Assembly (NCBI GenBank): GCA_947629225.1
Contig: CANRCY010000002.1
Location: 1 to 34,459, forward strand
Length of the DNA stretch: 34,459 bases
Reading direction: 5' to 3'
DNA from: an uncultured Clostridia bacterium
GTDB lineage: Bacteria; Bacillota; Clostridia; Christensenellales; Borkfalkiaceae
Made by a program: the position numbers and the translations under genes. The first letter of the stretch is position 1, and each line of letters starts with the position of its first letter. Shown piece by piece: positions 1,353-21,591 of this stretch. Under the pieces are notes generated by a model that was not told where the DNA came from, did not search any database, and worked only from the letters and a program-made list of their open reading frames with translations.

Positions 1353-1382
1353 AAATTTTCACCGAAACATAACGGAATGCCA

Positions 1383-1411
1383 TTGCATTTTCACGCGGAA
1401 TTTGGTATAAT
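1383..1411 (+). promoter_or_regulatory. sigma70-like promoter for the trpS operon
   Basis: TTGCAT (1383-1388), 17-bp spacer, TATAAT (1406-1411); ATG at 1442 preceded by GGAGAG. Confidence 0.7.
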
Positions 1412-1441
1412 GTGTTCATAATACCGAATTTTGGAGAGAGA

Positions 1442-2440
1442 ATGGGAAAAGGTACGGTCTATTCGGCGATCCAGCCGAGCGGAAACCTCACGATCGGGAA
1501 CTACGTCGGCTCCATCCGTAATTGGCTGACGATGCAGGCGGAATACGATTGCTTTTTCGCCATGGCGAACATGCACGCCATCACCGTGCGGCAGGAGCCC
1601 GCGGAACTCAGAAGAAGGACGCTCGAACTTGCCGCGCTCTATATCGCCTGCGGGATCGACCCCGAAAAGTGCACGCTCTATGTGCAGTCGCAGGTGCCCC
1701 AGCATGCCGAACTTGCGTGGGTGCTCAATACGGTCACCTATGTCGGCGAAATGGAGCGCATGACGCAGTTCAAGGATAAATCGCAAAAACATGCCGACAA
1801 TATCAACATGGGGCTCATGGACTATCCCGTGCTCATGGCGGCGGATATTCTCCTCTATCAGGCGGAATTCGTCCCCGTGGGGCAGGACCAGACCCAGCAT
1901 GTCGAGATCACGCGGGATATCGCCGTCCGTTTCAACAACCGTTTCGGCGAAACGTTCACCGTGCCCAAGGCGCTCATCTTAAAGCAGGGCGCGAAGATCG
2001 CCTCCTTGCAGGAACCGACGAAAAAGATGAGCAAGTCGGACGAAAACCCGAACGCTTCCGTCTACCTCACCGACGACAGAGAGACGATCATGCGCAAATT
2101 CAAGCGCGCCGTTACCGACAGCGGCAACGAAATCCGCTTCGCTCCCGACGAAAAGCCGGGGGTCTCCAACCTGCTCACGATCTACGCCTCCTTCACGGGT
2201 AAGACGGCGGAAGAGGCGGAAAAGGAATTTGCGGGCAAGGGCTACGGCGAATTCAAGCTCGCCGTGGGGGAGGCAGTCGCGGACAAGCTCGCCCCCGTGC
2301 AGGCGGAACAGGCGCGTATCCTTCGGGACAAGGCTTACCTCGGCGGGGTGCTCGCCTCGGGCGCGGAGCGCGCCTACAAGACCGCCCGCAAGACCCTCTC
2401 CAAAGTCTACCGCAAGATCGGTTTCTATCAAGGCGAATAA
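1442..2440 (+). CDS. trpS: Tryptophanyl-tRNA synthetase
   Basis: N-terminus MGKGTVYSAIQPSGNLTIGNYVGSIRNW and KMSKS motif (KKMSKSDENPNAS), both typical of TrpS. ATG 1442 with SD preferred over the upstream GTG 1412, which directly abuts the -10 box. Confidence 0.95.
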   Translation: MGKGTVYSAIQPSGNLTIGNYVGSIRNWLTMQAEYDCFFAMANMHAITVRQEPAELRRRTLELAALYIACGIDPEKCTLYVQSQVPQHAELAWVLNTVTYVGEMERMTQFKDKSQKHADNINMGLMDYPVLMAADILLYQAEFVPVGQDQTQHVEITRDIAVRFNNRFGETFTVPKALILKQGAKIASLQEPTKKMSKSDENPNASVYLTDDRETIMRKFKRAVTDSGNEIRFAPDEKPGVSNLLTIYASFTGKTAEEAEKEFAGKGYGEFKLAVGEAVADKLAPVQAEQARILRDKAYLGGVLASGAERAYKTARKTLSKVYRKIGFYQGE

Positions 2441-3306
2441 TGTTCGGCTATATCCGTTACGATCTTCCAAATCTCTATATCAAGGACCTCGAACTTTACA
2501 GGGCGCTCTATTGCGGGCTGTGCAAGGGCATCGGCTCGTCATGCGGGCAGGCGGCGCGCATCGGGTTGAGTTACGACGTCGCCTTTCTCTCCGCCCTTCT
2601 GCACAATCTCGCGGGGCAAAACGTCACCGTGGAAATGCAGAACTGCTTCGAGCATACCTTAAAGAAGAGACCCATTGCAAAGCCCGACCCCCTCACCGAA
2701 GAGCTCGGCGCGCTGAACACCGTTCTCATCTATTATAAGCTGACGGACGACATTTCGGACGGCGAGCGGGGCAGGGGAAAGCGGCTCTGGTTCAAACGGG
2801 GCTTCCGCCGCGCGAAAAAAAATTACCCCGAACTCGTCGGGATCGTGGAACGGTTCATGCGGGCGCAGGCGGAGACGGAGAAGAGAGCCGACCCCTCTGC
2901 GGACAGGGCGGCGGACCCGACCGCCTGCATGCTGAGGGAGCTCTCGCGGCATTTCCTCGGCGAAAAGGCGGGCGAGGGGACCGACGAGCTCTTCTACAAT
3001 TTGGGCAAGTGGATTTATCTCATCGACGCGCTCGACGATTACGACAAGGACAAAAAGAAGGGAAATTACAACCCGTTTGTCTTAACGTACGGCGCGGAGA
3101 GCCGCAAAGCTCTCCTCGAACAAGAGCGGGAAGACGTCTCGTTTTTGTTCGACACGATCTTTTTCGCCCTGCGCGAAGGGCTGTCGGGCTGCAAATTTTC
3201 TTTCAACCGCGATCTGACCGATAACGTCATTCTGCTCGGGATTCCCGCCGAGACCTCCCGCGTGATGAAGGGAGAAAAGCGGGAAGAGATGCGGGCGAAG
3301 ATCTAA
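2440..3306 (+). CDS. DUF5685 family protein
   Basis: N-terminus MFGYIRYDLPNLYIKDLELYRALYCGLCKGIGSSCGQ is typical of the DUF5685 family. ATG overlaps the trpS stop by 1 nt. Confidence 0.8.
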   Translation: MFGYIRYDLPNLYIKDLELYRALYCGLCKGIGSSCGQAARIGLSYDVAFLSALLHNLAGQNVTVEMQNCFEHTLKKRPIAKPDPLTEELGALNTVLIYYKLTDDISDGERGRGKRLWFKRGFRRAKKNYPELVGIVERFMRAQAETEKRADPSADRAADPTACMLRELSRHFLGEKAGEGTDELFYNLGKWIYLIDALDDYDKDKKKGNYNPFVLTYGAESRKALLEQEREDVSFLFDTIFFALREGLSGCKFSFNRDLTDNVILLGIPAETSRVMKGEKREEMRAKI

Positions 3307-5896: not shown

Positions 5897-5923
5897 ACGG
5901 AGGGACCCCCCTCCGTTTTTTTA
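5897..5923 (+). terminator. Rho-independent terminator of the trpS-rlmD operon
   Basis: ACGGAGGG-accc-CCCTCCGT followed by a T run. Confidence 0.85.
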
Positions 5924-5940
5924 TTACTCCTTTTTTCCTT

Positions 5941-6045
5941 GGCTCCCCCTTGAGGGGGAGCTGTCGAGGCTATGCCGAGACTGAGGGGGTGTCTCGCTGT
6001 CCCTGAAGTGGCGAAGCGCAGTGAGCCGAAGGGCGGCGCTCCGCA
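5941..6045. repeat. REP/MITE-like intergenic palindromic element, copy 1
   Basis: Perfect hairpin GCTCCCCCT-TG-AGGGGGAGC (5942-5961), then ...CTCGCTGTCCCTGAAGTGGCGAAGCGCAGTGAGCCGAAGGG... Its 3' half resembles 16115-16165. Confidence 0.55.
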
Positions 6046-6208
6046 ACCATGTAACAAATTTGCATAAAACTAATTTTTATTCATCACTCTTTCACATAAA
6101 AATGAAAAAAACGAGCAAAAACCAATGTTTTGCTAAATATTTTTTATTATATCAGATTTAGTTATGGATATATAATCAATTTTTATACATTGTCATGCGG
6201 AAAATCGC

Positions 6209-6238
6209 TTGACATTCCTTTTTGTGAAAAGATATAAT
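6209..6238 (+). promoter_or_regulatory. sigma70-like promoter for the giant LRR lipoprotein gene
   Basis: TTGACA (6209-6214), 18-bp spacer, TATAAT (6233-6238). Confidence 0.8.
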
Positions 6239-6284
6239 GACAGAAATTATAATTTATAATGGAACAATTATAAGGAGAGACGAT

Positions 6285-9200
6285 ATGAAACGCAGATTGC
6301 TCTTATTGCTTTCGGTCTTCTTTGCAGTCATCGGCGTGCTTACGTTCGCTTCCTGCAAGGAGAACCCCGACGTGGGCGGAAATCTCCAAGCGGGCGAAGA
6401 AGCCGGCGATTACTACTGCGAAGTCGGCGGGGAGAAATGCACCCTCTCGCTGACGCAGGAGTGCGGGTTTACGCTCGACGTAGGGGGAGCTCCGATCACG
6501 GGCAGTTACACCCCCAACGGCGAAGTCCTCGCGATGAAATACGACGGAGGGGAGATCTCCGCCACCTATTTCAACGATGTGGTCACGCTCGAATTCGAGG
6601 GGACATCTTACCGCTTTTTGAGAGACGTGAACTACACGGTCACGTTTGAAACGAACGGGGGGAGCACGGTATCTCCCGTTTCCGTCCGCAACGGCAAAAA
6701 GGCGGAAAAGCCCGAACCTCCCACAAAAGACGGCGAAGTGTTCGTCGGCTGGTATACGGACAACAATTTTAAGAGCGCCTATGCCTTCAACGAGCCCGTT
6801 TCTTCCGACCTTAAATTATATGCGCGCTTTGTCGCGCCCATGGACCCCGAATACACCGTCTCGTTCGACGTGAACGGGGGAGAGGGGAGCTTCGATCCCG
6901 TGCAGACGATCGGGCATAAGCTCTTCGAACTTCCCGTGCCCGAACGCGAAGACGGCGCAGAATTTGTGGGTTGGTGGGTCAGCCAGTACGGCGACCCCGA
7001 AAAGCTCACCTACCAATATAAGGTAGAGCAAACGCTCGAAGAGAGCGTCACGCTCTATGCCGTTTGGGCGGGCGAAGCTCCCGTCGTTTCGGTAGGGGAA
7101 AAGCTGATCGAGTGGAATTCCGTCGGCGTCGGCGCGACCTATTCGCTCACGGTGAAGAACCTCTCTGTGACGGACGGGGACCCCGTCGTCGTTACGTGGA
7201 CGGGCGCGCAGACTTCCTACAATTTCGATTTCACCCGGCAGGATGCGGGCGAATACGAAATTTCCGTCCAGTCGAACAACAAAGAGGGCAAGGCGTACTA
7301 TAAAAACAAGGTCCTTGCCAAAGTCTCCGTCTTCAAGGTCGAAGGCAGCACCTTGATGTTCAACAAGGTCGAAAATGCGGAGAAATACTTGCTCGCGATC
7401 GAGTGCGGTGACGCGGGTCATCATCCCGGACCCATCGAGATCGACGCGAACAACCCCGCTTCCTACGATTTCTCGGGTTGCGAGATGAAGAACGGCAAGA
7501 TCGGCTTCACGGTCACTGCCACGGCGACGGGCTACCTTTCGTCCGTCTCCGATAAGTTCGAATTCTCGCGCGTGCTCGACCAAGTTTCGGGCATCGACGT
7601 CGAACCCAACTCCGAACAGCTCCGCTGGTCGTCCGTTCCCAATGCCGCGACCTATCACGTCACGGTAAAGCAGGGCGATAGCACGCTCTATGAAGAGGAC
7701 GTTGTCGACGGAACGTCTTTCCCGCTCAAAAATCTCGACAGCGGTCTCTATGAGATCTCCATCACGCCCAAGGCGCGCGGCTGGAACTCTCCCGCGGCGT
7801 CGACCTATTCCTATCAAAAGAATACCCTTGCCGCGCCCGCGAACGTCCGCTCCGACGTCGCCAATTCCAAGATCGTTTGGGATACGGTCAAGGGAGCCGT
7901 CCGCTACGAAGTGCAGATCGGCAGCCATACCAAGTCGGTAACGGAGAACGAAATCCCCTTCACCGAAGAATTCCGCGAGGCGGGCGTCTCCGAATATACC
8001 GTCATCGTGCGCGCGATCGCGCAGGATTCCGCAAACAACTCCCTCTGGACGGACGTTTATTCCGTGCGTTACGGCGAACTCGGCAACGAGCTCCGCTATC
8101 GCGACGGCGTTCTCTCTTGGGACCCCGTCTTCGGCGTGAGCAGTTATGAACTCAAGCTCAACGACGGCGAAGGCGTCGCTTACGACAATGTTTCGAGCAT
8201 CGATGTAAAAGAACTCTTCACCGCGGAGGGCACCTACCGCTTTGCGCTCCGCGCGCTCTATGCCGACACGGGCGAAAAGACGATCTACGCCACCGTGCAG
8301 ATTTATAAACTTTCCTTCGATACGCAGGGCGCGGATCAAAATATCGGCAGCCTCTATCTCGCCACGGGCGACAAGGTCACCCTTCCCGGGAGCGAAGACG
8401 TCTCCCTCTTCGGGTTCGATCTCGACGGTTGGTACACCGATCCCGACGAAGACAAAGGCGAACGCTACGACGACGGCGTCTATCTCGACCAGAACAACCG
8501 CACCGTCTATGCGCATTGGAATCCCAAGATGTTCCACATCAAGCTCGTCGTCGCTCCTTACGGCATTGAAACGGAGGAGATCACGGCAGGTGTAGACGCG
8601 TTTTACAGAAGACGGGTCGAACTTCCCATTCCCGAGAGCTCCGATCCCATCAAGGGCTTCACGGGTTGGTACGATTCTCCCACGGGCGAAGTCTCCTTCA
8701 CCCGCGCAGACGGCGTGATCGCAAGCTATACGCAGGGCGGCGACATCACCCTCTATGCGCAGTGGATCGACGTGCTCTCCTTCACCGCGATCACCGACGG
8801 CAACGGCACGATCACCGCTTATCAGGTGAGCAAGAGCAAGGACATCAACCTCAGCGACCTTTCGCTGATCCACATTCCGCAGTATTATCAAGAGAGACCC
8901 GTCACGCAGGTCATCGACTTCACCGAGTGCACCTCGCTCGAGATCGTGGAAATTCCCGACAGCATCCAGCTGATCTCGGTCGCCACGACGGAGAGCGCCT
9001 TCACGGGCTGCACGAAACTCCGCGAGATCAGAATTTACGAGACCGACTATAACGGTCCGAAGTATTACAGCGACGTGGACGGCGTGCTCCTCTACAACAA
9101 CCCGGGCACGAACCTGCTCGAACTCAAACTCTATCCCATCGGGCGCGACGCCGAAGTCTTCGACATTCCCGACGGCGTGCAGGTGCTCCCTTCCAACGCG

Positions 9201-12200
9201 ATCTGGAACATCAATGCGCTCCGCACGCTCACCATTCCCGCGAGCGTGACCCTGATCGAAACGCAGGCGATCGGCTATTCGAGCACCTCCTATGCCGATC
9301 TCGAAACGCTCACCTTCAAGGCGGCGGCAAACGGTGCGGCAGAACAGCCTCTCGAGATCAGAGAGGGCGCCTTCTACACGCTGCGCGCGCTCAAACACCT
9401 CACCCTTCCTTCCCGCCTCACGGACCTCAACTTCTACACGATGTTCGGCGATACGTATCCCGATTCGTACTCGATCTTCAAGCCGAGCCAGTTAGAGACG
9501 CTTGACTTCGTCGGCGACGGCGGCGTCTATTCCGTCAAGGACAACGGCGCTCTGTACAAGGATAACGGTGCAGACGGGTTGGAGCTCGTGTTCTATCCCT
9601 CGAATGCCGAAACGTTCGAGCTCGACCCGAATACGACCTCGATCGGCGACGACGCCGTGCGCGACAATACCACGATCACCGCGATCGAAATCCCCGCCGT
9701 GGTCACGAATATCGGCGCCCGCGCGTTCTACGGAACGGGCGAAGTGGCGACGCTCACCTTCAAGGGCGAAGCGGGCAAGCTCACCATCGGCGAGTACGCC
9801 TTCTACGGTTGCGGGGATGACCTCTATTCGTGGGATCCCGTCATACTCGACCAGCTCGTGCTTCCCGTCAATCTCGTCCGCCTCGGCGCGCATGCCTTCG
9901 GCGACACGAAGATCAAGAAAGTCACCCTCAACAGCGACGCCGTCATCGACGACGGTGCGTTTGCGGACGACTACGGCGATTCCGAAGTCACCGAGCTTGT
10001 CATCGGACCGAACGTCAAAAACATCAACTTCCGTTCGGTGTTCGGCGCCAAGGTCACCACGATCACGGTCGATCCCGACAATCCTTACTACGACAGCGAG
10101 GACAACGTGATCTACACCAAGAACTACGGCGAGCTCGTGTGGTACAATCTCTCCGCGCTCGGCGACGGCAATTTCGTATTGCCCGATTCCGTCACCCGTA
10201 TCGGCGCGAATACCTTTAAGGATATGGCGGCGCTCAGAAGCATCACCATTCCCGCAAGCGTCACCTACATCGGGCAAGAGGCGTTCTCGGGTTGCAGCGG
10301 GCTCGCAAACGTCATCTTCAAGGCGCCCGAAAACGGCGCCGAGAGGGCAGAGCTCACCATCGGCAACGAGGCGTTCTATAACTGCAAGTCGCTCGTCTCG
10401 ATCACCCTTCCCGAAGGGACCACGAGCCTCGGCTCCAAGATGTTCACGGGGTGCGATAAGCTCACCGAAGTAAATCTTCCCGCCTCGCTCGAACACATCG
10501 AGCCCGTCTACGACTACAACCAGTACAGCGGCAAAACGTCGACCCAGCTCGGCATGTTCTCCGATTCCTATTCGAACATCCTTGCCGTGCTCACGGTCGC
10601 CGAGGGCGGGCAGCACTACTCCGCCAAGGAAGACGTGCTCTACTCTCTCCGTCTCGACGAAAAGACGCAGACTTATGTCGAAGACGAGGTCCTGTACAGG
10701 GCTCCGAAGTCGGCGCACACGTCGGTCACCCTTCCCGATACCATCAGTTACATCTGGGATCGTTCCTTCTATTCCTACTCGACGACCAATCCGAGCACGC
10801 TCACCACGCTCATCTTCCCCGAGACCCTCGCAAAGAGGACGGATAAAGAGGGCAACGAGGTAGACGGCACGCTCGAGATCGGCGACTATGCCTTCTACGG
10901 CAACGTCTCCCTCAAATCGGTCGTATTGCCGCAGGGCGTTACCGTCATCGGCGAAGACGCATTCAACAGCTGTCCGTTCACAAGCTTCGTCGTGCCCAAG
11001 ACGGTCACCTCGATCCGCGCGAGCGCATTCAGATATTGCCAGGAGCTCCGCACCCTCACCTTCGAAGAGGGCGGCACAGAGCCTCTCCGCATCGAGGACG
11101 TCACGGAGTACAGCTCCTACGGCTTCGTGTATAATTGTAGCCGTCTGAGAAAGGTCGAACTTCCCGAACGTACGAGCTACATCGGCGAAGCGGCGTTCGG
11201 TCTTTGCGAACTTCCCGACGGGGTCGTGATCCCGACCACCGTCCGCGAGATCGGAGAGAGTGCGTTCGAGCAGTCGAAGATCCCCACCGTGACCTTCACG
11301 AAGGGCAGTAAGCTCGAGAGCATCGGCTACCAGGCGTTCTACTCTTCCAAGCTCGAATCGATCGTCATTCCCGCTTCCGTCCGCTTCATCGACAATCAGG
11401 CGTTCGCCAACTGCGAATCGCTCAAGAGCTTCGTCGTGGAAGACAACAGCGAGCTCGAAACGATCGGCGATGCGAACTACGGCAACATCGCACCCAACGT
11501 CTTCTCGGGTTGCTATAACCTTGCCGAGGTGAGCTTCGGCGAGAACTCCAAGCTCAGATACATCGGTCAGGAAATGTTTGCGCACTGCGTCTCGCTCAAG
11601 AGCATCGTCATTCCGCTCAGCGTCGAAGAGATCGGCAAAAACGCATTCCTGATCTCCGAATACGACGTCGGCAAGACGGGCAATCCCGACGACCTCGGTT
11701 TAACGTCCATCACGTTCGAACAGAAGGAAGATCGGCTCAGCAAGCTCCATGTCGTCGGGCAGGCGTTCTCGGGCACGCAGATCACCGAGTTCCGCTTCCC
11801 CGAAACGGAGAACGAAATCGTCCTCAAAGACAATGTCTTCCTGGGTTGTGCAAATCTTGCCACCGTCTACATCAGCAGCAAGATCTACAACCTGAAAAAC
11901 GCCTTCCTCGGCTGCACCAAGATCACGAAGATCGAAGTCTCCGCGGATAACCCGAGCTATGAGATCGACGCAAAACAGCCCTTCCTCAGAAGCAAGACGA
12001 ACGGGGATATCCTCCTCGTCTTCGGCGCAGTGACGGGCAGGCTCGAGATCGAAGATGGCTCCGTGCAGATCGGCGCTTCCGCCTTCTCGGGCACCGAGAT
12101 CACCGAAGTGTACATTCCTCGCAGCGTCATGCGTATCGGCGACTCTGCGTTCAAGGATTGTCTCTCTCTTCAAAAGGTCGAATTCGAATCGGGCAGTTCC

Positions 12201-15200
12201 CTCAACACCATCGGCTTGGAGGCGTTCAGCGGATGCGTTGCCCTCAACGATATCGACTTCACCAAGACCCTTCAGCTCAACACGTTGGTTGCAGACAAGA
12301 ACGGGTACAACAGCAACACCTTCGCGGGCTGTTCGAGCCTCACCGTGCTCGATTTCAGCAACACCCGCCTCACGACGATCGGGAGCGGCACGTTCGACGG
12401 ATGCACCGAATTGCAGACCCTCAGACTTCCGCGCACCCTCACGAGCATTTCGAGCCGGACGAGTTATAGTTATTATTCAGAATCTGTGCTCGGTCACACC
12501 AAGATCGCGTCCCTCGATCTGAGCAGAACGGGTCTCAAAGAGCTCCCGATGAACTTCTTCAAGGGAAGCGCGACGCTGGAAAGCGTTCAGTTCCCGAACT
12601 CCCTCAACACGATCGGTCCCTTCGCCTTCCAAGGTTGCACGGCGCTCACCGAGCTCGACCTTTCGGGCAACGGCGGGATCCAGGAGATCGGCAACTACGC
12701 GTTCGAGAGCTGCACGAACCTTGCGACCCTCAAACTGCCCACCTCCCTTCGGACCATCCGCTTCGCCGCATTCGCGAACGATACCCTCGTCACTTCCGTG
12801 AATCTCGATTTTGTCGAGGCGATCGAACTCAAAGCGTTCTACAACACGGGTCTCACCGAAGTTACGCTCTTGGGGAGAGTCACCAAATGGGGCGGCGGCG
12901 ACGATTGGAGCCAATCGTACTCCGGTTGGGATTGGCGTGCCGTCAGCGCAAGAGAGGACAACGGCATCTTCGCCGCCTGCAAAGACTTGAAGAAGGTCAC
13001 CTTCTCCTACACGCTTACCGCCGACTGCAAATTCGAGAGCTACACCTTCGCGCATTGCGACGCGCTCGACACCATCACGTTCGAGGAGGGCACGCAGGTC
13101 GCCACCCTTGGGCAATATATGTTCACATACTGCTCGGGGCTCAAGTCGGTCACCCTTCCCGCAAGCATCAACGATCTGAACTACGCCCGCGCTTTCCAAA
13201 ATTGCATCAACATGCAAATGCTCGACTTTTCCAAGACGGCGTTGACGGGTTTGGATAACAGCTTGTTCAGCGGTTGCGAAAACCTCGAAACGATCAAGCT
13301 GCCTCACGGGCTCACCTCCATCGATTACTACCTCTTCGAAGATATGACGAAGTTGCGCTCGGTCGAGATCCCCTCGAGCGTCACCTCGATCGGAAACTCC
13401 GCATTCGAAAACTGCACCTCGCTCACGTCCATTGACCTTCCCGAAGGGATCAAAACGATCGGCAGCTCTGCGTTCGAAGGTTCGGGGATCACTTCCATCA
13501 GGCTGCCCGCATCCCTTTCCGATTCCGGAAGCTACTACGGCGCACTCGGCACGAGCATCTTCGAAGATTGCGCGTCTCTCGGGTCCGTCACCTTTGCTCC
13601 CGGCATCGACATTCAAAAGATCCCGTCGAGCGCCTTCAAGAACTGCACGTCGCTCACGTCCATCACCCTTCCCGAAGGGCTCACCGATATCGGCGCGAAC
13701 GCCTTCCTCAACGCGGGGATCGTCTCCCTCACCCTTCCGTCGAGCCTGAAAGTGGTCGGGAACCTCGCCTTCTCGGGAAGCAAGATCATGAACGCCGAGA
13801 TCAAGGGCGGGCAGGTCATGGACTCCTCCTACTCCTACGCGTCCGTTCCCAAGCAGCTCTTTGAGGACTGCACAGCCCTTCTCACCGTCACCTTCGCAGA
13901 GGGCACGACGGAGATCGGCGAAAGCTGGTTCTCGGGTTGCAGTTCGCTCATGAGGGTCACCCTTCCCGAAAGTGCGGCGACCCTCGGCAAGAACGCCTTT
14001 GCAAACTGCACGTCGCTCCAGGACATCGACCTGCAACATGTCTCCTCGATCGGCGAGGGCGCGTTCACGGGTTGCGAAACGCTCTTTAAGAGCGAGCAGA
14101 ACTGGCAAGACGGCGTGTTCTACCTCGGCGGACAGATCGTCGCCTTCGACGAAGATCGTCTCAAGGCGGCAAACGGCATTGTCAACGTGAAAGATGGCAC
14201 GGGAAGTATCGGCAACAAGACCTTCTCGGGCGCGCAAGAGCTCAAAAAGATCGTGCTGCCCGCAAGCGTCACTTCGATCGGCGCTAACGCCTTCGAAAAC
14301 TGCGTCGCCCTCACGGAGGCAGACCTCTCTGCGTCCTCCGTCACGGAGATCCCCGCCAGTGCGTTCATCGGTTGCACGGCTTTGACGAAGTTCTCCTTCC
14401 CCAAAGCGATCGAATCGATCGGCTCCTCCGCCTTCAACAAGACGGGTCTCACCGAGATCACGATCCCCGCAACCGTCTCTACGCTTGGGTCGAGCGCCTT
14501 TGCAGATTCCTCGCTTGAAAGTATCACCTTCGAAGACGGCGCGCTCACCGCTCTTCCGAGCAGCTTGTTCAGCGGTTGCGAATCTCTTACAAGCGTCAAG
14601 CTCGGCACGAAGATCATCGAACTCAACATGTATGTCTTCGAAAACTGCACCGCGCTCGAAACGATCGACCTGTCTCATCTCGAGGTCATCGGCTCCTCCG
14701 CCTTCAGGGGCGCGGGGCTCACGAGCGTCACGATCCCCGAGGCGATCAAGGGCTCCTATCCCAACAACCTCGGCGCGAACGCCTTCGAAAACTGCACGAA
14801 ACTTGCGAAGGTAGAGTTCGCTTCCGAAGAGAACTTCACCAACCTTTCGGGTTCGCTGTTCAAGGGCTGCACCGCGCTCAAGACCATCACCCTTCCCGCA
14901 AGCGTCACCGCGATCAACGAGAGCACGTTCGAGAATTCGGGGCTTCAGTCCATCGTCATTCCCGAATCCGTCGTGGGCATTGGCGCGAACGCCTTCAAGG
15001 GTTGCGCCGAACTCACGAGCGTCACTCTTTCCAAGGGTCTCAAAAATCCGCCGAGCTATTCGAGCTCCGTTGCGAGCGGCTTGTGCGAAGGCGCGTTCGA
15101 AAACTGCGTCAAGCTCGCCTCGATCGACTTCACCGCCTGCACCTCGCTCACCGAGCTCCCGAGCAGACTGTTCACGGGTTGCACCCTTTTGAATGACATC

Positions 15201-16013
15201 ACCCTTCCCGCGGGTCTCACGAGGATCGGGATGAACTGCTTCGAAGGCACTGCCTTCACCGAGTTCACCATTCCCGAAACCGTCTCCGCGATCGGCACGG
15301 GCGCGTTCAAGGGCTTGTCCATCACAACGATCACCCTTCCCGCCGCCCTTGTAGATTACGAAGAAGATTACAGTTATTATGACGGCTACGTCTGGGTTGA
15401 CGGCTTCGGCGAAGGCGTGTTCGAGAACTGCACAGAGCTTACCACGGTGATTTTTGCGGAAGGATGCAAGCTCACCGAGCTCTCCGCAAACACCTTCAAA
15501 GGCTGCTCGTCGCTTTCCGAGATCACCCTTCCCGATGGGCTCGATCAGGTTTGCGAATCGGCGTTCAAGGGTTGCGTTGCTCTCAAACATCTCAAACTGC
15601 CGATCACCGTGAAATACTTCGGCAACGACATGTTCAGCGGCTGTTCGTTCGACCTGCTCGAGATCCCGAGCAGCAAGGATACCGACTATTACGAGCGGTA
15701 CTTCTCGGAATTCGTCTCCGTCAAGGTGGTCTCCATTCTCGACGGTTGCACCGAGCTCAACGAGTATCTCTCCACGGTCGCCAATCTGCCCGGACTTCAA
15801 AAGATCATTCTGCCCAAGACAATTGACCGTTACGACGTCGACTATAAGGGCATAGGTCCTTTCGACAATCTTCCTTCGACCGTCCAACTTTGCTTCGTCG
15901 GCAGCGAAGAGGAGATGAAGACGAACTTCGGCGAAAGCGAATGGGAGGAGTTCAAGGCGACCTTCCCCGAAGATGCAAACGTCGTTTACGAGTACAAAGA
16001 GAACGCAGACTGA
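6285..16013 (+). CDS. Giant (~3242 aa) surface lipoprotein: InlB/Flg_new-like repeats, FN3-like segments, long LRR_5 (BspA-like) array
   Basis: Start at ATG 6285 after SD AAGGAGAG; lipoprotein signal MKRRLLLLLSVFFAVIGVLTFASC. Flg_new-like units (YTVTFETNGGSTVSPVSVRNGKKAEKPEPPTKDGEVFVGWYTD...LYARF). Then dozens of LRR_5 units of type 'F.GC..L..V.LP..L..IG..AF..C'. No LPXTG or C-terminal TM seen. The ORF-track start at 6237 overlaps the -10 box. Confidence 0.92.
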   Translation: MKRRLLLLLSVFFAVIGVLTFASCKENPDVGGNLQAGEEAGDYYCEVGGEKCTLSLTQECGFTLDVGGAPITGSYTPNGEVLAMKYDGGEISATYFNDVVTLEFEGTSYRFLRDVNYTVTFETNGGSTVSPVSVRNGKKAEKPEPPTKDGEVFVGWYTDNNFKSAYAFNEPVSSDLKLYARFVAPMDPEYTVSFDVNGGEGSFDPVQTIGHKLFELPVPEREDGAEFVGWWVSQYGDPEKLTYQYKVEQTLEESVTLYAVWAGEAPVVSVGEKLIEWNSVGVGATYSLTVKNLSVTDGDPVVVTWTGAQTSYNFDFTRQDAGEYEISVQSNNKEGKAYYKNKVLAKVSVFKVEGSTLMFNKVENAEKYLLAIECGDAGHHPGPIEIDANNPASYDFSGCEMKNGKIGFTVTATATGYLSSVSDKFEFSRVLDQVSGIDVEPNSEQLRWSSVPNAATYHVTVKQGDSTLYEEDVVDGTSFPLKNLDSGLYEISITPKARGWNSPAASTYSYQKNTLAAPANVRSDVANSKIVWDTVKGAVRYEVQIGSHTKSVTENEIPFTEEFREAGVSEYTVIVRAIAQDSANNSLWTDVYSVRYGELGNELRYRDGVLSWDPVFGVSSYELKLNDGEGVAYDNVSSIDVKELFTAEGTYRFALRALYADTGEKTIYATVQIYKLSFDTQGADQNIGSLYLATGDKVTLPGSEDVSLFGFDLDGWYTDPDEDKGERYDDGVYLDQNNRTVYAHWNPKMFHIKLVVAPYGIETEEITAGVDAFYRRRVELPIPESSDPIKGFTGWYDSPTGEVSFTRADGVIASYTQGGDITLYAQWIDVLSFTAITDGNGTITAYQVSKSKDINLSDLSLIHIPQYYQERPVTQVIDFTECTSLEIVEIPDSIQLISVATTESAFTGCTKLREIRIYETDYNGPKYYSDVDGVLLYNNPGTNLLELKLYPIGRDAEVFDIPDGVQVLPSNAIWNINALRTLTIPASVTLIETQAIGYSSTSYADLETLTFKAAANGAAEQPLEIREGAFYTLRALKHLTLPSRLTDLNFYTMFGDTYPDSYSIFKPSQLETLDFVGDGGVYSVKDNGALYKDNGADGLELVFYPSNAETFELDPNTTSIGDDAVRDNTTITAIEIPAVVTNIGARAFYGTGEVATLTFKGEAGKLTIGEYAFYGCGDDLYSWDPVILDQLVLPVNLVRLGAHAFGDTKIKKVTLNSDAVIDDGAFADDYGDSEVTELVIGPNVKNINFRSVFGAKVTTITVDPDNPYYDSEDNVIYTKNYGELVWYNLSALGDGNFVLPDSVTRIGANTFKDMAALRSITIPASVTYIGQEAFSGCSGLANVIFKAPENGAERAELTIGNEAFYNCKSLVSITLPEGTTSLGSKMFTGCDKLTEVNLPASLEHIEPVYDYNQYSGKTSTQLGMFSDSYSNILAVLTVAEGGQHYSAKEDVLYSLRLDEKTQTYVEDEVLYRAPKSAHTSVTLPDTISYIWDRSFYSYSTTNPSTLTTLIFPETLAKRTDKEGNEVDGTLEIGDYAFYGNVSLKSVVLPQGVTVIGEDAFNSCPFTSFVVPKTVTSIRASAFRYCQELRTLTFEEGGTEPLRIEDVTEYSSYGFVYNCSRLRKVELPERTSYIGEAAFGLCELPDGVVIPTTVREIGESAFEQSKIPTVTFTKGSKLESIGYQAFYSSKLESIVIPASVRFIDNQAFANCESLKSFVVEDNSELETIGDANYGNIAPNVFSGCYNLAEVSFGENSKLRYIGQEMFAHCVSLKSIVIPLSVEEIGKNAFLISEYDVGKTGNPDDLGLTSITFEQKEDRLSKLHVVGQAFSGTQITEFRFPETENEIVLKDNVFLGCANLATVYISSKIYNLKNAFLGCTKITKIEVSADNPSYEIDAKQPFLRSKTNGDILLVFGAVTGRLEIEDGSVQIGASAFSGTEITEVYIPRSVMRIGDSAFKDCLSLQKVEFESGSSLNTIGLEAFSGCVALNDIDFTKTLQLNTLVADKNGYNSNTFAGCSSLTVLDFSNTRLTTIGSGTFDGCTELQTLRLPRTLTSISSRTSYSYYSESVLGHTKIASLDLSRTGLKELPMNFFKGSATLESVQFPNSLNTIGPFAFQGCTALTELDLSGNGGIQEIGNYAFESCTNLATLKLPTSLRTIRFAAFANDTLVTSVNLDFVEAIELKAFYNTGLTEVTLLGRVTKWGGGDDWSQSYSGWDWRAVSAREDNGIFAACKDLKKVTFSYTLTADCKFESYTFAHCDALDTITFEEGTQVATLGQYMFTYCSGLKSVTLPASINDLNYARAFQNCINMQMLDFSKTALTGLDNSLFSGCENLETIKLPHGLTSIDYYLFEDMTKLRSVEIPSSVTSIGNSAFENCTSLTSIDLPEGIKTIGSSAFEGSGITSIRLPASLSDSGSYYGALGTSIFEDCASLGSVTFAPGIDIQKIPSSAFKNCTSLTSITLPEGLTDIGANAFLNAGIVSLTLPSSLKVVGNLAFSGSKIMNAEIKGGQVMDSSYSYASVPKQLFEDCTALLTVTFAEGTTEIGESWFSGCSSLMRVTLPESAATLGKNAFANCTSLQDIDLQHVSSIGEGAFTGCETLFKSEQNWQDGVFYLGGQIVAFDEDRLKAANGIVNVKDGTGSIGNKTFSGAQELKKIVLPASVTSIGANAFENCVALTEADLSASSVTEIPASAFIGCTALTKFSFPKAIESIGSSAFNKTGLTEITIPATVSTLGSSAFADSSLESITFEDGALTALPSSLFSGCESLTSVKLGTKIIELNMYVFENCTALETIDLSHLEVIGSSAFRGAGLTSVTIPEAIKGSYPNNLGANAFENCTKLAKVEFASEENFTNLSGSLFKGCTALKTITLPASVTAINESTFENSGLQSIVIPESVVGIGANAFKGCAELTSVTLSKGLKNPPSYSSSVASGLCEGAFENCVKLASIDFTACTSLTELPSRLFTGCTLLNDITLPAGLTRIGMNCFEGTAFTEFTIPETVSAIGTGAFKGLSITTITLPAALVDYEEDYSYYDGYVWVDGFGEGVFENCTELTTVIFAEGCKLTELSANTFKGCSSLSEITLPDGLDQVCESAFKGCVALKHLKLPITVKYFGNDMFSGCSFDLLEIPSSKDTDYYERYFSEFVSVKVVSILDGCTELNEYLSTVANLPGLQKIILPKTIDRYDVDYKGIGPFDNLPSTVQLCFVGSEEEMKTNFGESEWEEFKATFPEDANVVYEYKENAD

Positions 16014-16028
16014 TCTGCGTTCACACTG

Positions 16029-16057
16029 AAAAGGCAGGCGGTCTCGCCTGCCTTTTT
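16029..16057 (+). terminator. Rho-independent terminator after the giant LRR gene
   Basis: AAAAGGCAGGCG-GTCT-CGCCTGCCTTTTT. Confidence 0.9.
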
Positions 16058-16069
16058 CACTTTCCGAAA

Positions 16070-16175
16070 TTTCCTCACTGTCCCGTTTAGGGAGGTGCGC
16101 CAAGGATAACCCCCTCGCTGTCCCTGAAAGGGAAAGTGGCATGAGCGGAGCGAATGCCGAAAGGGTTCTCTAAAA
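16070..16175. repeat. REP/MITE-like intergenic element, diverged copy 2
   Basis: CTCGCTGTCCCTGAAAGGGAAAGTGGCATGAGCGGAGCGAATGCCGAAAGGG, resembling the 3' half of the element at 5941-6045, same orientation. Confidence 0.45.
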
Positions 16176-16302
16176 CCCCTCGCAAAAAATGTCGCAAATT
16201 CACCCTTCTTGTGCGGGATTTACATTTTTGCATGGGAGTTTGGCATACATCTCAAATTATACATGTTAAATTTATAAATTTTATATTTTCACATGTATTT
16301 GC

Positions 16303-16332
16303 TTGACGGATTCTTGCCTTCGGATATATAAT
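16303..16332 (+). promoter_or_regulatory. sigma70-like promoter for the MoxR/VWA/lipoprotein operon
   Basis: TTGACG (16303-16308), 18-bp spacer, TATAAT (16327-16332); first ATG at 16365. Confidence 0.75.
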
Positions 16333-16364: not shown

Positions 16365-17573
16365 ATGGAACGGAAAATATACGAAAAATACAGGAAACGC
16401 ATCGTCAAAGAGGGGATCCTGAAATCTGTTCTTTTGGGCGACATCATCGGTCTCGCCGTCTTCTTGGTCACCGCGTTCTTCTCGTGGTTTTTCGACTATA
16501 AGGCGGGCTTGTTCATTGCGCTCGCACTATTCGGGGTCATCAGCACGGCGGCTACTCTTTTGTTCTATTTCCTCCGCTACCGTCCTACGGTCAAGCAAGT
16601 CGCTTGCCGTATCGACGCGCTCGGTCTCGAAGAGCGCATGCTCACGATGACGGAGCTCGAGGGGGACGATTCCTATATCGCGAGAGCCCAGCGTGAAGAC
16701 ACGATCCGCGCGCTCGGCTCCGTCGACCACATGCTCTTGAAGATCGCGATCTCGGCGGCGATCATCGTGCCCTTCTGTATCTGTTGCGTACTCGGGCTCG
16801 GCATGGCGACCGTCGGCTCCCTCCACGTCGCGGGCATTATCCCGAGCGGGCTCGTAACGCTCACGCCCGACTATACCCCCGGCGTCTTCACCGCGATCTA
16901 TTCCGTCGAAGAGGGGGGCGAAGGCTCCATCATCTATTGGACGGGCGATTGGAGCTCCCCGACCCCCGTCAGCGAAACGGGCGATAAAGTCAAAGAGGGC
17001 GAAGACGCGAAAGCCGTCTATGCGATCCCCGCGGACGATTGGGTCTTTGTCTGTTGGTCGGACGGATGGGGCAATCCCTACCGTCAGGATACCGTCGTAG
17101 ACGAGGACATCTTCGTACAGGCAATTTTCGAACCCATGGACCCCGACCCCGAAGATTCCGAGGCGGAGGACAGCGCGAACAGCGAAGAGAACAGCGACCC
17201 GAGCCAGGAAGGACAGCAAGGTCAGCAGGGTCAAGAGGGGCAGGACGGTCAGCAGGATGGCGAGCCGCAGGAAGGCGACGCGCAGGGCGAAGGAAAGGAC
17301 GATTCGAACGGCGAACCCTCCGCAAACCCCGGGCAATCGGGCGCAAGCGGCGCGCGCGACCTCTCGAGCCAGCAGATCGTGGACGGGCAGACCTACTACG
17401 GCGACCAGTTCGACGACGCCTATCAATCGGCAAAGGACCGTCTGAGTTCGGACAGCAACATTCCCGACGATCTCAAAGGTCACATCGAGGACTATTACGA
17501 ATCGATCGAAACGGGCGGCGAAACGGGCAGAGACGGAAGCGGCTCGGAGGGCGGCTCCGACAGCGGCGACTGA
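16365..17573 (+). CDS. Membrane protein with extracytoplasmic InlB-like domain and Q/G/E-rich low-complexity tail (possibly DUF4175-like)
   Basis: N-terminal hydrophobic helices and a third near residues 125-155; a 'RIDALGLEERMLTMTEL' segment; InlB/Flg_new_2-like domain YTPGVFTAIYSVEEGGEGS...DWVFVCWSDGWGNPYRQDTVVDEDIFVQAIFEP; then GQQGQQGQEGQDGQQDGEPQEGD. Confidence 0.75.
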   Translation: MERKIYEKYRKRIVKEGILKSVLLGDIIGLAVFLVTAFFSWFFDYKAGLFIALALFGVISTAATLLFYFLRYRPTVKQVACRIDALGLEERMLTMTELEGDDSYIARAQREDTIRALGSVDHMLLKIAISAAIIVPFCICCVLGLGMATVGSLHVAGIIPSGLVTLTPDYTPGVFTAIYSVEEGGEGSIIYWTGDWSSPTPVSETGDKVKEGEDAKAVYAIPADDWVFVCWSDGWGNPYRQDTVVDEDIFVQAIFEPMDPDPEDSEAEDSANSEENSDPSQEGQQGQQGQEGQDGQQDGEPQEGDAQGEGKDDSNGEPSANPGQSGASGARDLSSQQIVDGQTYYGDQFDDAYQSAKDRLSSDSNIPDDLKGHIEDYYESIETGGETGRDGSGSEGGSDSGD

Positions 17574-17621
17574 ATTAAAAAAACGAAAAATCATAAAAAA
17601 TAAAATAAGAGAGTGAAAGAC

Positions 17622-18713
17622 ATGGTTACCGAAAACGACATCAAGAAATTCAGCGAACAGTGCAAAAACATCTTCGAGCAGGTCGAGCGCGATATGATCG
17701 GGCAGAAAGAGGTCGTGCAGGGCACGATCATCGCCATGATCGCGGGCGGCAACGTGTTGCTCGAAGGCGTCCCCGGCGTCGGCAAGACCCGTTTGGTGCG
17801 CTCCCTCGGGCGGGTATTCGACCTGCCCTTCAAGCGGATCCAGTTCACGCCCGACCTCATGCCCGCCGACGTCACGGGTACCAACATCATCGTAAAGGAC
17901 GATAACGGCAATTCGCAGTTCCAGTTCCAGCCCGGTCCCGTATTCAGCAACATCATTCTTGCCGACGAGATCAACCGTGCCACACCCAAAACGCAGTCGG
18001 CTCTGCTCGAAGCCATGCAGGAGCACACCGTCACGGTCATGGGCGTTTCGAGAAAGCTCAACGAGCCCTTCTTCGTCCTCGCGACCCAGAACCCGATCGA
18101 GCAAGACGGTACCTATCCGCTCCCCGAAGCGCAGATGGACCGTTTCATGTTCAAGCTCATCGTGCCCAATCCCAGCCTCGACGAGCTCGTCCAGATCGTC
18201 AACATGACGCAGAAGACCATGGACGAAGTCGCCGAAGCGGCTTGCACGGGCGAAGAGCTCCTCGAAATGCGCAAGACGGCGAACCAGATCCCCGTCGCGG
18301 ACGAGGTGATGTATTACGCGATGAAGCTCTGCTCCGCGACCCATCCCAACAGCGAGTGCGCGAGCGCGGCGGCAAAGAAGTATATCCGTCTCGGCGCGAG
18401 CCCCCGTGCGGGTCAGGCGCTCATCTCGGCAGCCAAGGTCATGGCGCTCATGAAGGGGCGTTTCAACGTCGCCTATAACGACATCAACGAACTTGCCTAT
18501 CCCGTGCTCCGTCACCGTATGAAGATGAACTTCGAGGCAGTCGCCGAACGGATCGCGCCCGACGACGTCATCAAGATGATCATCGACGAGCTCGGCGGAA
18601 AGCGCGCACCCGCCGCGGCGCCCGTTGCGCCCGCGGAAAAGACAGAGGCGCCCGCGGAAGAACAGCCGCAGGAAGAGGGGAAGAAGAAGAGAAAATTGTT
18701 CGCGAAGAAGTAA
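17622..18713 (+). CDS. MoxR-family AAA+ ATPase
   Basis: Walker A GGNVLLEGVPGVGKTRLVR; Walker B NIILADEINRATPKTQSALLEAMQE; ATQNPIEQDGTYPLPEAQMDRF. ATG 17622 preferred over GTG 17613. Confidence 0.93.
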   Translation: MVTENDIKKFSEQCKNIFEQVERDMIGQKEVVQGTIIAMIAGGNVLLEGVPGVGKTRLVRSLGRVFDLPFKRIQFTPDLMPADVTGTNIIVKDDNGNSQFQFQPGPVFSNIILADEINRATPKTQSALLEAMQEHTVTVMGVSRKLNEPFFVLATQNPIEQDGTYPLPEAQMDRFMFKLIVPNPSLDELVQIVNMTQKTMDEVAEAACTGEELLEMRKTANQIPVADEVMYYAMKLCSATHPNSECASAAAKKYIRLGASPRAGQALISAAKVMALMKGRFNVAYNDINELAYPVLRHRMKMNFEAVAERIAPDDVIKMIIDELGGKRAPAAAPVAPAEKTEAPAEEQPQEEGKKKRKLFAKK

Positions 18714-18730: not shown

Positions 18731-19630
18731 ATGAAACCGAACAAACTCAACGACGCGTTTTTCAGCAGACTGGAAACGATGTCATTAAATTTGAAATCGA
18801 GCCTTGCGGGCTATTTCGGCGGGAAGCACCTCGTGCGGACGTACGGTCAGACGGTGGAATTTGCCGACTACCGCGAATATCAGCTCGGCGACGACATCAG
18901 AAGGATCGATTGGAACTTGTTCAGCCGTTTCGAGAAGTACTTTTTGAAGCTCTTTACCGACGAACGGCAGATGCAGGTGCAGATCTTCCTCGATTGCTCG
19001 GGCTCGATGGGAAAGAACAGCCCCCAAAAGGCGGAGTATGCCGTCGCCGCGACCGCGGCGCTGGGCTTTTTGGCTGTCCAGAATATGGATAAGCTCAACC
19101 TCTGTTTCATGACGGGAAACACCGCAACGGACCCGTTCGGCACGATCGTGGGGAAGAATTCCTTCTTCCGCGCGGTCGGCGAGCTCTCCTCGCTCGAATT
19201 CGACGGCGAGGCGGATTTGTATTCGTGCATCACGAGCTATCCGAACGTGAGCGAAAACAACGGGCTCAGCGTCATCATCTCCGATTTCTGCACGGAGAGC
19301 GATTGGAAAAAAGCCGTCGACTATCTGTGTTTCAAAAAGCGGCAGGTGCTCCTTCTGCAAGTGCTCACGCCCGAAGAGATCGACCCCGTTTACGAAGGAC
19401 GGGTCTCGCTCATCGACTCGGAATCGGTCGACCTCGAAGATTCGAAAAACCTCAAACTCCGCATCACGCGCGGCATGCTCGCCGCCTATCAGGAGGCGCT
19501 CCGCGATTTCCGCGAAGACATGCGCGTCTTCTGCGCCAAGCGCGAAGCGGGGTATATCACCGTCTCTACCGACAGTCCCATTGAACGGGTTCTGTTCGGC
19601 GAGCTGTTAAAGGATGGAATTATGTCATGA
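18731..19630 (+). CDS. DUF58 domain protein (VWA-like fold)
   Basis: RTYGQTVEFADYREYQLGDDIRRIDWNLFSRFEKYFLKLFTDERQMQVQIFLDCSGSMG: typical DUF58 core plus DxSxS motif. Confidence 0.92.
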   Translation: MKPNKLNDAFFSRLETMSLNLKSSLAGYFGGKHLVRTYGQTVEFADYREYQLGDDIRRIDWNLFSRFEKYFLKLFTDERQMQVQIFLDCSGSMGKNSPQKAEYAVAATAALGFLAVQNMDKLNLCFMTGNTATDPFGTIVGKNSFFRAVGELSSLEFDGEADLYSCITSYPNVSENNGLSVIISDFCTESDWKKAVDYLCFKKRQVLLLQVLTPEEIDPVYEGRVSLIDSESVDLEDSKNLKLRITRGMLAAYQEALRDFREDMRVFCAKREAGYITVSTDSPIERVLFGELLKDGIMS

Positions 19631-21591
19631 TGAAGCTCTTGGTACCCTTGGGGCTGTTGGGGCTCATCGGGATCGCGGTCCTCATCCTGATCTACATCAT
19701 CCGTCCCAATTACCAAACGCAGCACGTTTCGAGTACATACGTTTGGAGACTCAGCCTCAATTACAAACGCAAGCGCCCTCCCGTCAGCAAGATACGCAAC
19801 ATTCTGATCTTTATCTGCCAACTCTTGATCTTAACGGCAATGGCGCTCCTTATGGCGTGGCCCGCCATCACCGAACGCTCGCTCAACGACGAAACGGACG
19901 CGATCTATATCCTCGATTCTTCGGCGAGCATGTATGCGGGGGATGGGGAGAACACGCGTTTTGACCGTGCGCTCTCCGAAATCCGCACCCGTGCCGACCA
20001 AATCCTCGCAGAGGGCGGCAAGGCGACGGTGATCGTTGCGGACGACGCGCCCTATTTCCTCGCCCAGCGGGTCGATTCTTCGCGCGCCATGCGTTTCCAT
20101 GCCGATATGGATGCGCTCAAAGAAAAGGGCTGTTCGTATGCCGTTTCCGACCTCGAAGCCGCCCTCACGCTCAGCCGCGACGTGCTCGAAGCCAACCCTT
20201 CCGCGGCGATCTATCTCTTTACCGATACCGAATATTCCTATGTTCCCGAACGGGTGACGGTGGAGCTCGTACGCGAGAATACCGAGTGGAACGCCGCCAT
20301 TCTCGACGCTTCCGCCGAACGGGAAAACGGCTATTACACGATCACCGTGCAGATCGCCTGTTACGGCGTCACGCAGGAACTCAAAGTGGAGATCAACGTC
20401 GACGGAGCCAACTCCATTCCCGCGTCGGGAGTCGCGGGCAATCCCGTCGAATTCTATAAATACGTCGATTGCGACGACGACGCCGTAAAGACGGTCATTT
20501 TCCGCGTCGGCGGCGGCGTAGAGGACGAGAACCTCTTCTACTACGACGTGAGCGACACGCAGAGATTTTTCTCCTTTAACTCCATACAGGTGAGCATCGA
20601 GGCGGACGATTCCTATCCCGTCGACGATCACTTTTCCATTTACGGGGGGCAGAAAGAGCTCTTGAAGGTGATGTATTACAGCACCGACCCCAACCCCTTC
20701 ATCCAGACCGCTCTCGGCATTGCGCACAACGCCCTTGCCGACAGGTACGACCTCGAAGTGTACGAAGTCAAGAAGGGGGACGCTCCCGTCCTCGAAGGGT
20801 ACGATTTTTACGTCTTTGAGCACGGCATGCCTTCCCGTCTTCCGACGGACGGCGCAGTTTTGCTCCTCGATCCCAACCCCAACATCGCGCCCGTTCCCTT
20901 AGAGGCGGACTTCGTCGCGGAGCGCACCTCCGACTTCAACGGGAGCTCCGTCTCCCTTGCGGAAGGGGACGATTACGAAGGACACCCCGTAACGAGGTAT
21001 ATCGTCGCCGACGACATCGAGGTCTCCTTTTACGACATGATCACCGACTACGACCCGTCCTATCAGGTCCTGCTCACATACGACGGAAACCCCATGCTCA
21101 TGGTGCGCAACGAAGAAGAGGTCAAGATCGCCGTCATGGCGTTCAGCGTCCACTTCTCCAACCTTGCCAAGCTCCCCGAGAACTTCTTGCTGATGTATTC
21201 GATCATCGACTATTTCTTCCCGTCTGTCATCAGCGGGAATGCGTTTGAAGTCAACGAATCGTTTACGCTCAACACATGGGGGGACGAGCTCGAATTTTCG
21301 TCGGGCGAAGTTTTCTCCGCCGACCAGATGCCCATGAAGTTCTCCCTCGATACCCCGGGGGATTACCGTTTCACCCAAACGACCTATTACGGCAGAGATA
21401 TTTCGGTAGAAGTCTTTATCAAACCGCCCGCAGAGGAGAGCAATATCCGCAAAACGGCAGACAGCTTTTCCGACCCTTACGAGGGCATGACGCGGGAGAC
21501 GGTCTACCGCGACCTGTTGATCATCTTTGCTTCCATTCTGTTCGGGCTCGTGCTTCTCGAATGGATTTTGCAATCGCGCGAAAATAAGTAG
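19627..21591 (+). CDS. BatA-like VWA domain membrane protein
   Basis: N-terminal membrane segments, MIDAS motif AIYILDSSASMYAG, C-terminal TM (LLIIFASILFGLVLLEWIL). Start overlaps the DUF58 stop by 4 nt. Confidence 0.85.
   Translation: MMKLLVPLGLLGLIGIAVLILIYIIRPNYQTQHVSSTYVWRLSLNYKRKRPPVSKIRNILIFICQLLILTAMALLMAWPAITERSLNDETDAIYILDSSASMYAGDGENTRFDRALSEIRTRADQILAEGGKATVIVADDAPYFLAQRVDSSRAMRFHADMDALKEKGCSYAVSDLEAALTLSRDVLEANPSAAIYLFTDTEYSYVPERVTVELVRENTEWNAAILDASAERENGYYTITVQIACYGVTQELKVEINVDGANSIPASGVAGNPVEFYKYVDCDDDAVKTVIFRVGGGVEDENLFYYDVSDTQRFFSFNSIQVSIEADDSYPVDDHFSIYGGQKELLKVMYYSTDPNPFIQTALGIAHNALADRYDLEVYEVKKGDAPVLEGYDFYVFEHGMPSRLPTDGAVLLLDPNPNIAPVPLEADFVAERTSDFNGSSVSLAEGDDYEGHPVTRYIVADDIEVSFYDMITDYDPSYQVLLTYDGNPMLMVRNEEEVKIAVMAFSVHFSNLAKLPENFLLMYSIIDYFFPSVISGNAFEVNESFTLNTWGDELEFSSGEVFSADQMPMKFSLDTPGDYRFTQTTYYGRDISVEVFIKPPAEESNIRKTADSFSDPYEGMTRETVYRDLLIIFASILFGLVLLEWILQSRENK

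Follow-up and report, generated by a model that had tools for sequence, protein, structure and literature searches.

Gene organisation of the locus

The window, meaning the whole stretch of 34,459 nucleotides analysed here (contig CANRCY010000002.1, from an uncultured clostridial bacterium of the family Borkfalkiaceae), carries on its forward strand, on which all features given below lie, an intact gene for a giant LRR_5 lipoprotein of 3242 aa (6285-16013), followed by a MoxR/VWA operon. The frame of the giant opens at 6237, with an ATG start at 6285 and a stop at 16013; a ribosome-binding site, AAGGAG (6272-6277), lies seven bases 5′ of the start, and a sigma70-type promoter, TTGACA-18-TATAAT (6209-6238), agrees with the consensus at 12 of 12 positions. 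The gene upstream ends in a terminator at 5897-5916, an intrinsic terminator identified by sequence scan follows the giant at 16036-16053, and the downstream operon is preceded by a promoter at 16303-16332 with 11 of 12 consensus matches, the chance expectation of the promoter scans being a mean of 0.5-0.8 sites per scan. An earlier note had described an intact frame with its own promoter and terminator, which these signals bear out, and had regarded the giant as a separate transcription unit; for the window this is well supported on sequence grounds, and with separate promoters the expression of giant and operon need not be coupled. The description may not carry over to some relatives, where just 26-50 bp separate giant and operon, neither a terminator nor a promoter is seen between them, and the two may be co-transcribed. 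Similar-looking intergenic stretches (containing ctgtccctgaa and gccgaag) occur on both sides of the giant, at 5940-6050 and 16075-16180, and a search of the window for tRNA and Rfam elements found none.

The source genome is a fragmented metagenome bin, 66% complete and in 221 contigs, and this favours reading the giant as an assembly artefact in which a repeat array has been fused or collapsed. Such a reading is effectively refuted by orthologues of ~2650-3890 aa which are colinear over their full length and come from many independent assemblies, and by the repeats inside the gene, which are mostly 60-75% identical at the DNA level and include no exact repeat of 25 nt or longer. The absence of such exact repeats and a G+C content of 57%, the same as that of the window, make a short-read collapse unlikely.

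The giant begins with a lipoprotein signal peptide (residues 1-24; 6285-6356) comprising a basic n-region (MKRR), a hydrophobic h-region and the lipobox FASC at residues 21-24, the last being retained in the orthologues inspected with the exception of that of locus L152, which has a TM-type start. Residues 42-114 (6408-6626) form a 73-aa module, here termed the GN domain, which has been conserved among 24 sequences spanning several families of the order and which has no Pfam or PDB relative at a significant level. AlphaFold2 predicts it to be an eight-stranded beta-meander (pLDDT 84), and as the best Foldseek match reached only E = 0.04, the weak matches including lipocalin-like, NlpE and DUF4847 structures, a lipocalin-like fold may be taken as a lead only. 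Two InlB-type (List_Bact) repeats (residues 115-263; 6627-7073) follow, then five FN3-like modules (residues 264-674; 7074-8306), two further InlB-type repeats seen in the domain scan and the AlphaFold2 model (residues 675-829; 8307-8771), and an LRR_5 solenoid of ~2350 aa (residues ~830-3183; 8772-15833). Pfam scores on the giant were 1093 bits for LRR_5 (cut-off 27.7), in 18 stretches, and 128 bits for the List_Bact/InlB repeats. None of the Pfam FN3 models fires on the giant; the FN3-like segments are nevertheless considered real, since the AlphaFold2 model of the N-terminal 771 residues (mean pLDDT 88) matched FN3 arrays in Foldseek. Compared with its nearest orthologue the protein shows ~35-53% identity with little fluctuation over its length, so that a hypervariable LRR region suggestive of antigenic variation is not supported for the giant of the window; in its last 42 residues identity falls to 24%.

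The operon begins with Op1 (16365-17573), which by domain scan and hydropathy has three TM segments, an InlB-like domain, an acidic linker and a conserved C-terminal segment. It is followed by the MoxR AAA+ ATPase (17613-18713; PF07726), with Walker A GVPGVGKT and Walker B DEINR, by a DUF58 protein (18731-19630; PF01882), by a BatA-like membrane VWA protein (19627-21591; PF07584, PF13519) and by a membrane VWA/GATase1-like protein (21601-24462). VWA-type DxSxS motifs occur in DUF58, in BatA and, within the VWA/GATase protein, in the second of its VWA domains; this last protein, as judged by sequence comparison, ends in a predicted cytosolic tail, RKFKFKWIHE (24391-24420), which is nearly invariant across diverse sequences. 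The MoxR protein also has a basic C-terminal tail, KKKRKLFAKK (18650-18713), which recurs in several MoxR orthologues and is a possible docking element. The last two genes encode lipoproteins, OpLRR, an LRR_5 protein of 989 aa (24459-27428), and OpFlg, an InlB-repeat protein of 1639 aa (27425-32344), both assigned by domain scan; the latter contains ~1500 aa of LDGxG-type repeats and gave no Pfam match other than one InlB repeat. The modules which the earlier note saw as shared between the giant and the operon lipoproteins (lipobox, InlB-like repeats, FN3-like segments, LRR) are broadly as it described, except that the 1639-aa protein gave no LRR match. Its proposal that the N-terminus of the giant resembles an LDGxG unit was not upheld: a profile of 24 orthologous N-termini compared with the family of the 1639-aa protein aligned only at an InlB junction, over 22 columns with a probability of 28%.

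Conservation and co-occurrence of the giant and the VWA protein

When 84,980 species genomes were searched using the VWA protein as query, 54 loci were obtained, mostly from gut Clostridia and including Candidatus Borkfalkia, Limihabitans and Pumilibacter, and these were combined with genomes drawn from the genus and the order for comparison of gene neighbourhoods. A giant LRR gene was found immediately 5′ of Op1 and on the same strand at 46 distinct loci, many of these giants running past the retrieved stretch and the complete ones measuring ~2650-3890 aa. Giant and Op1 were 26 to 464 bp apart; a terminator-like site was seen in 19 of the gaps and a promoter-like one in 13. The conserved locus, present in several families of one order, consists of the giant, Op1, MoxR, DUF58, BatA, the VWA/GATase-like protein, the LRR lipoprotein and the InlB lipoprotein. 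The giant lies near the operon in nearly all operon-bearing relatives, and to place it merely beside the operon, as the earlier note did, was correct and understated its position as the near-constant first member of the locus.

In some loci (genomes G036 and G109) an LRR protein of 500-760 aa takes the place of the giant. In G036 (L163-L169), G310 and G336 the VWA/GATase gene is present seven to nine times per genome, most of the extra copies in G036 having an LRR protein of ~500 aa, and not a giant, before Op1. Two complete giants (~3310 and ~3590 aa) stand in tandem before the operon in G322 (L194-L195). G109 (L185-L193) harbours GN giants, or the starts of such giants, in at least 8 dispersed copies, the 5′ ends of which are mostly 76-100% identical per 100 bp; their upstream flanks are unrelated and contigs break there, and they look like a recently expanded, possibly recombining family. 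As this genome has just one VWA locus, with a 759-aa LRR protein before it, giants can evidently exist unlinked to the operon.

As the first loci had been found by way of the VWA protein, the reverse test consisted of searching for the GN domain alone in 103 congeneric genomes. A strong GN match was obtained in 48 of these and the near VWA protein in 61, with both present in 47, the VWA protein only in 14, the giant only in one and neither in 41. Several of the VWA-only cases are truncated by contig ends, and the giant-only congener is a genome of 66% completeness. The co-occurrence is significant (Fisher p = 2e-15, uncorrected for shared ancestry), the copy numbers of giant and canonical VWA gene were equal in 37 of the 45 genomes with both, and over all 103 congeners copy number correlated with a rho of 0.82, likewise uncorrected for shared ancestry. 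On contigs carrying both genes, 33 of 34 GN giants were situated on the strand of the VWA gene and upstream of it; the distance was 11-17 kb for 32 giants, while the one lying further off is the outer member of a tandem pair. The genomes compared are metagenome bins almost without exception, and contig ends interrupt many of the loci.

Relatives of the VWA protein extend beyond the order: 50 sampled Clostridia genomes from outside it contained one (148-548 bits), and none of these 50 had a GN giant. The MoxR/VWA machine therefore needs no giant in general, and the giant seems to have been added, in this lineage specifically, to an operon of wider distribution. The cytosolic tail RKFKFKW.H shows a parallel distribution and marks LRR-linked loci: of 68 loci that carry an LRR gene, 66 have it, and it was absent from all 7 divergent LRR-free loci, this last figure setting aside five contig-truncated loci and a termite locus (L089) which has the RKFKFKW tail and in which an LRR gene was not detected.

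Relation to known systems

The tandem LRR_5 repeats above the Pfam cut-off place the giant among the BspA-like proteins, with which it has in common an LRR_5 solenoid with a period of ~23 aa and secretion, as judged against the BspA-like/TpLRR set compared (4fs7, 4gt6, 4fdw, TpLRR 6mlx and Streptococcus HupY/LrrG). It differs from the solved BspA-like proteins in an LRR array several times longer and a lipid anchor, in the GN, InlB and FN3 modules placed in front, and in its constant MoxR/VWA neighbour; against the HupY/LrrG model it scored 316, the cut-off being 1250. Nor does it belong to the internalin (InlB) family, as only the List_Bact/InlB repeat module is common to both; internalins are anchored by LPXTG or GW modules, whereas the LRRs of the giant are LRR_5 and its anchor is a lipobox. 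The earlier note held its size and lipid anchoring to be notable, a judgement which does not stand for the giant alone: the source genome has 136 LRR_5 matches on 29 contigs, and other lipobox-bearing LRR proteins of 640-2300 aa are encoded elsewhere in it, so that such lipoproteins are common and the giant by itself is ordinary. A second giant in the same genome (3001 aa, ~37% identical) likewise precedes an Op1 gene, the second in this genome, which lies where the contig ends, and the GN domain was found in that genome only in these two giants.

Adjacent genes for MoxR, DUF58 and BatA (PF07726, PF01882, PF07584 plus VWA_2) identify the operon as being of the Bat/MoxR kind, and this gene order as well as a double-TM anchor plus VWA topology are common to the Bat (aerotolerance) operons of Bacteroides, Leptospira and Borrelia. 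In contrast to BatABCDE operons (PMC5700661), no TPR, BatD or SH3 protein was seen (for TPR and BatD, no Pfam match among the operon proteins), and the locus has in addition a VWA/GATase-like protein after BatA, three large lipoproteins and Op1. A Borrelia study (PMC5700661) assigned a BatA-like protein to the inner membrane, its VWA domain facing the periplasm, and BatA, the VWA protein and Op1 have a hydropathy and charge that fit this topology. NorQ/NorD and RavA/ViaA likewise pair a MoxR ATPase with VWA MIDAS proteins and are associated with client remodelling (PMC9976466); NorQ and its partner remodel a specific client, the MIDAS motif being required for function and thought to bind that client (PMC9976466). 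The VWA partners in these pairs act on enzymes and have been described as proteins of the cytosol, whereas at the present locus the VWA proteins are predicted to be membrane-anchored and the candidate clients are surface lipoproteins. A search of the open-access literature returned no relevant paper on MoxR with leucine-rich-repeat lipoproteins, nor on Christensenellales with leucine-rich repeats.

A proposed role for the locus and its alternatives

That giant and machine stand side by side in dozens of related genomes suggests a joint function. We consider it somewhat probable, at about 55%, that the giant is the surface component of an eight-gene locus in which the MoxR/VWA machine handles the lipoproteins and the LRR solenoid binds ligands. 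The cytoplasmic membrane would hold the giant and the 989-aa and 1639-aa lipoproteins by their lipid anchors on its outer side; it would also contain BatA, the VWA/GATase-like protein and Op1, whose VWA and InlB-like domains would face outwards. MoxR and DUF58 would act from the cytosol, probably docking on basic tails such as the RKFKFKW.HE of the VWA protein, and the MoxR/VWA complex would most likely spend ATP to assemble, remodel or release the surface lipoproteins. The long LRR solenoid may serve to bind ligands from host, food or microbes, this adhesin or binding role resting on analogy with BspA-like proteins. From their gene context we infer that the lipoproteins are clients or subunits of the machine, a proposal which draws on client remodelling by NorQ/NorD, the Borrelia BatA-like topology and the fitting hydropathy and charge. 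Against such a partnership count the 14 VWA-positive congeners without a detected giant, the loci in which an LRR protein of 500-760 aa replaces it, the unlinked giants of G109, the VWA relatives outside the order, none of which is accompanied by a GN giant, and the separate promoters of the window.

A less probable explanation, though one that carries some weight, is that the giant is an ordinary BspA-like binding protein which stays beside the operon by inherited synteny only, with no interaction between the two. The abundance of LRR_5 proteins and large lipoproteins in the source genome, the promoter and terminator of the giant's own and the unlinked giants of G109 are all compatible with it; it accounts poorly for the presence and copy number of giant and VWA protein tracking each other through losses and duplications, for linkage across several families of the order, and for the confinement of the GN domain to the two GN-type giants of the source genome. 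The lipoproteins might instead be receptors of a sensing system, their LRR/FN3 ectodomains signalling through the membrane VWA proteins to MoxR and DUF58. A sensing role for such VWA proteins was raised by the authors of the Borrelia study (PMC5700661), and extracellular modules combined with membrane VWA proteins bearing conserved cytosolic tails would suit it, but the conserved locus contains no kinase, regulator or other output gene and the MoxR systems studied so far remodel clients, which leaves sensing improbable. It is very improbable that the locus is a MoxR-vWA ternary-type conflict system (PMC7159879) with the giant as effector. Such systems also combine MoxR, VWA and a further component, and with 37.9 bits the MoxR protein exceeds the cut-off of 27 set for the Pfam bpMoxR model; the further component here is, however, a set of surface lipoproteins, the products are predicted membrane and surface proteins, and Pfam and PADLOC revealed no VMAP, iSTAND, FtsH, beta-propeller or enzymatic effector. 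PADLOC yielded only weak AAA cross-hits, and a defence system was accordingly rejected.

A further extension of the preferred reading, in which the MoxR/VWA machine handles the lipoproteins, is tentative and less likely than not: that in gut Clostridia one branch of the Bat-type MoxR/VWA machines has specialised in assembling or remodelling giant surface lipoproteins at the expense of ATP, with the RKFKFKW tail as a lineage-specific coupling element. It is the neighbourhood, rather than the giant itself, that represents the real finding. Few clients of Bat-type MoxR/VWA machines have been described, and the three lipoproteins constantly paired with the machine provide concrete candidates, whereby the client question becomes directly testable in gut bacteria of a group that is widespread yet little studied. 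The locus also explains one class of the giant LRR proteins encoded by gut genomes.
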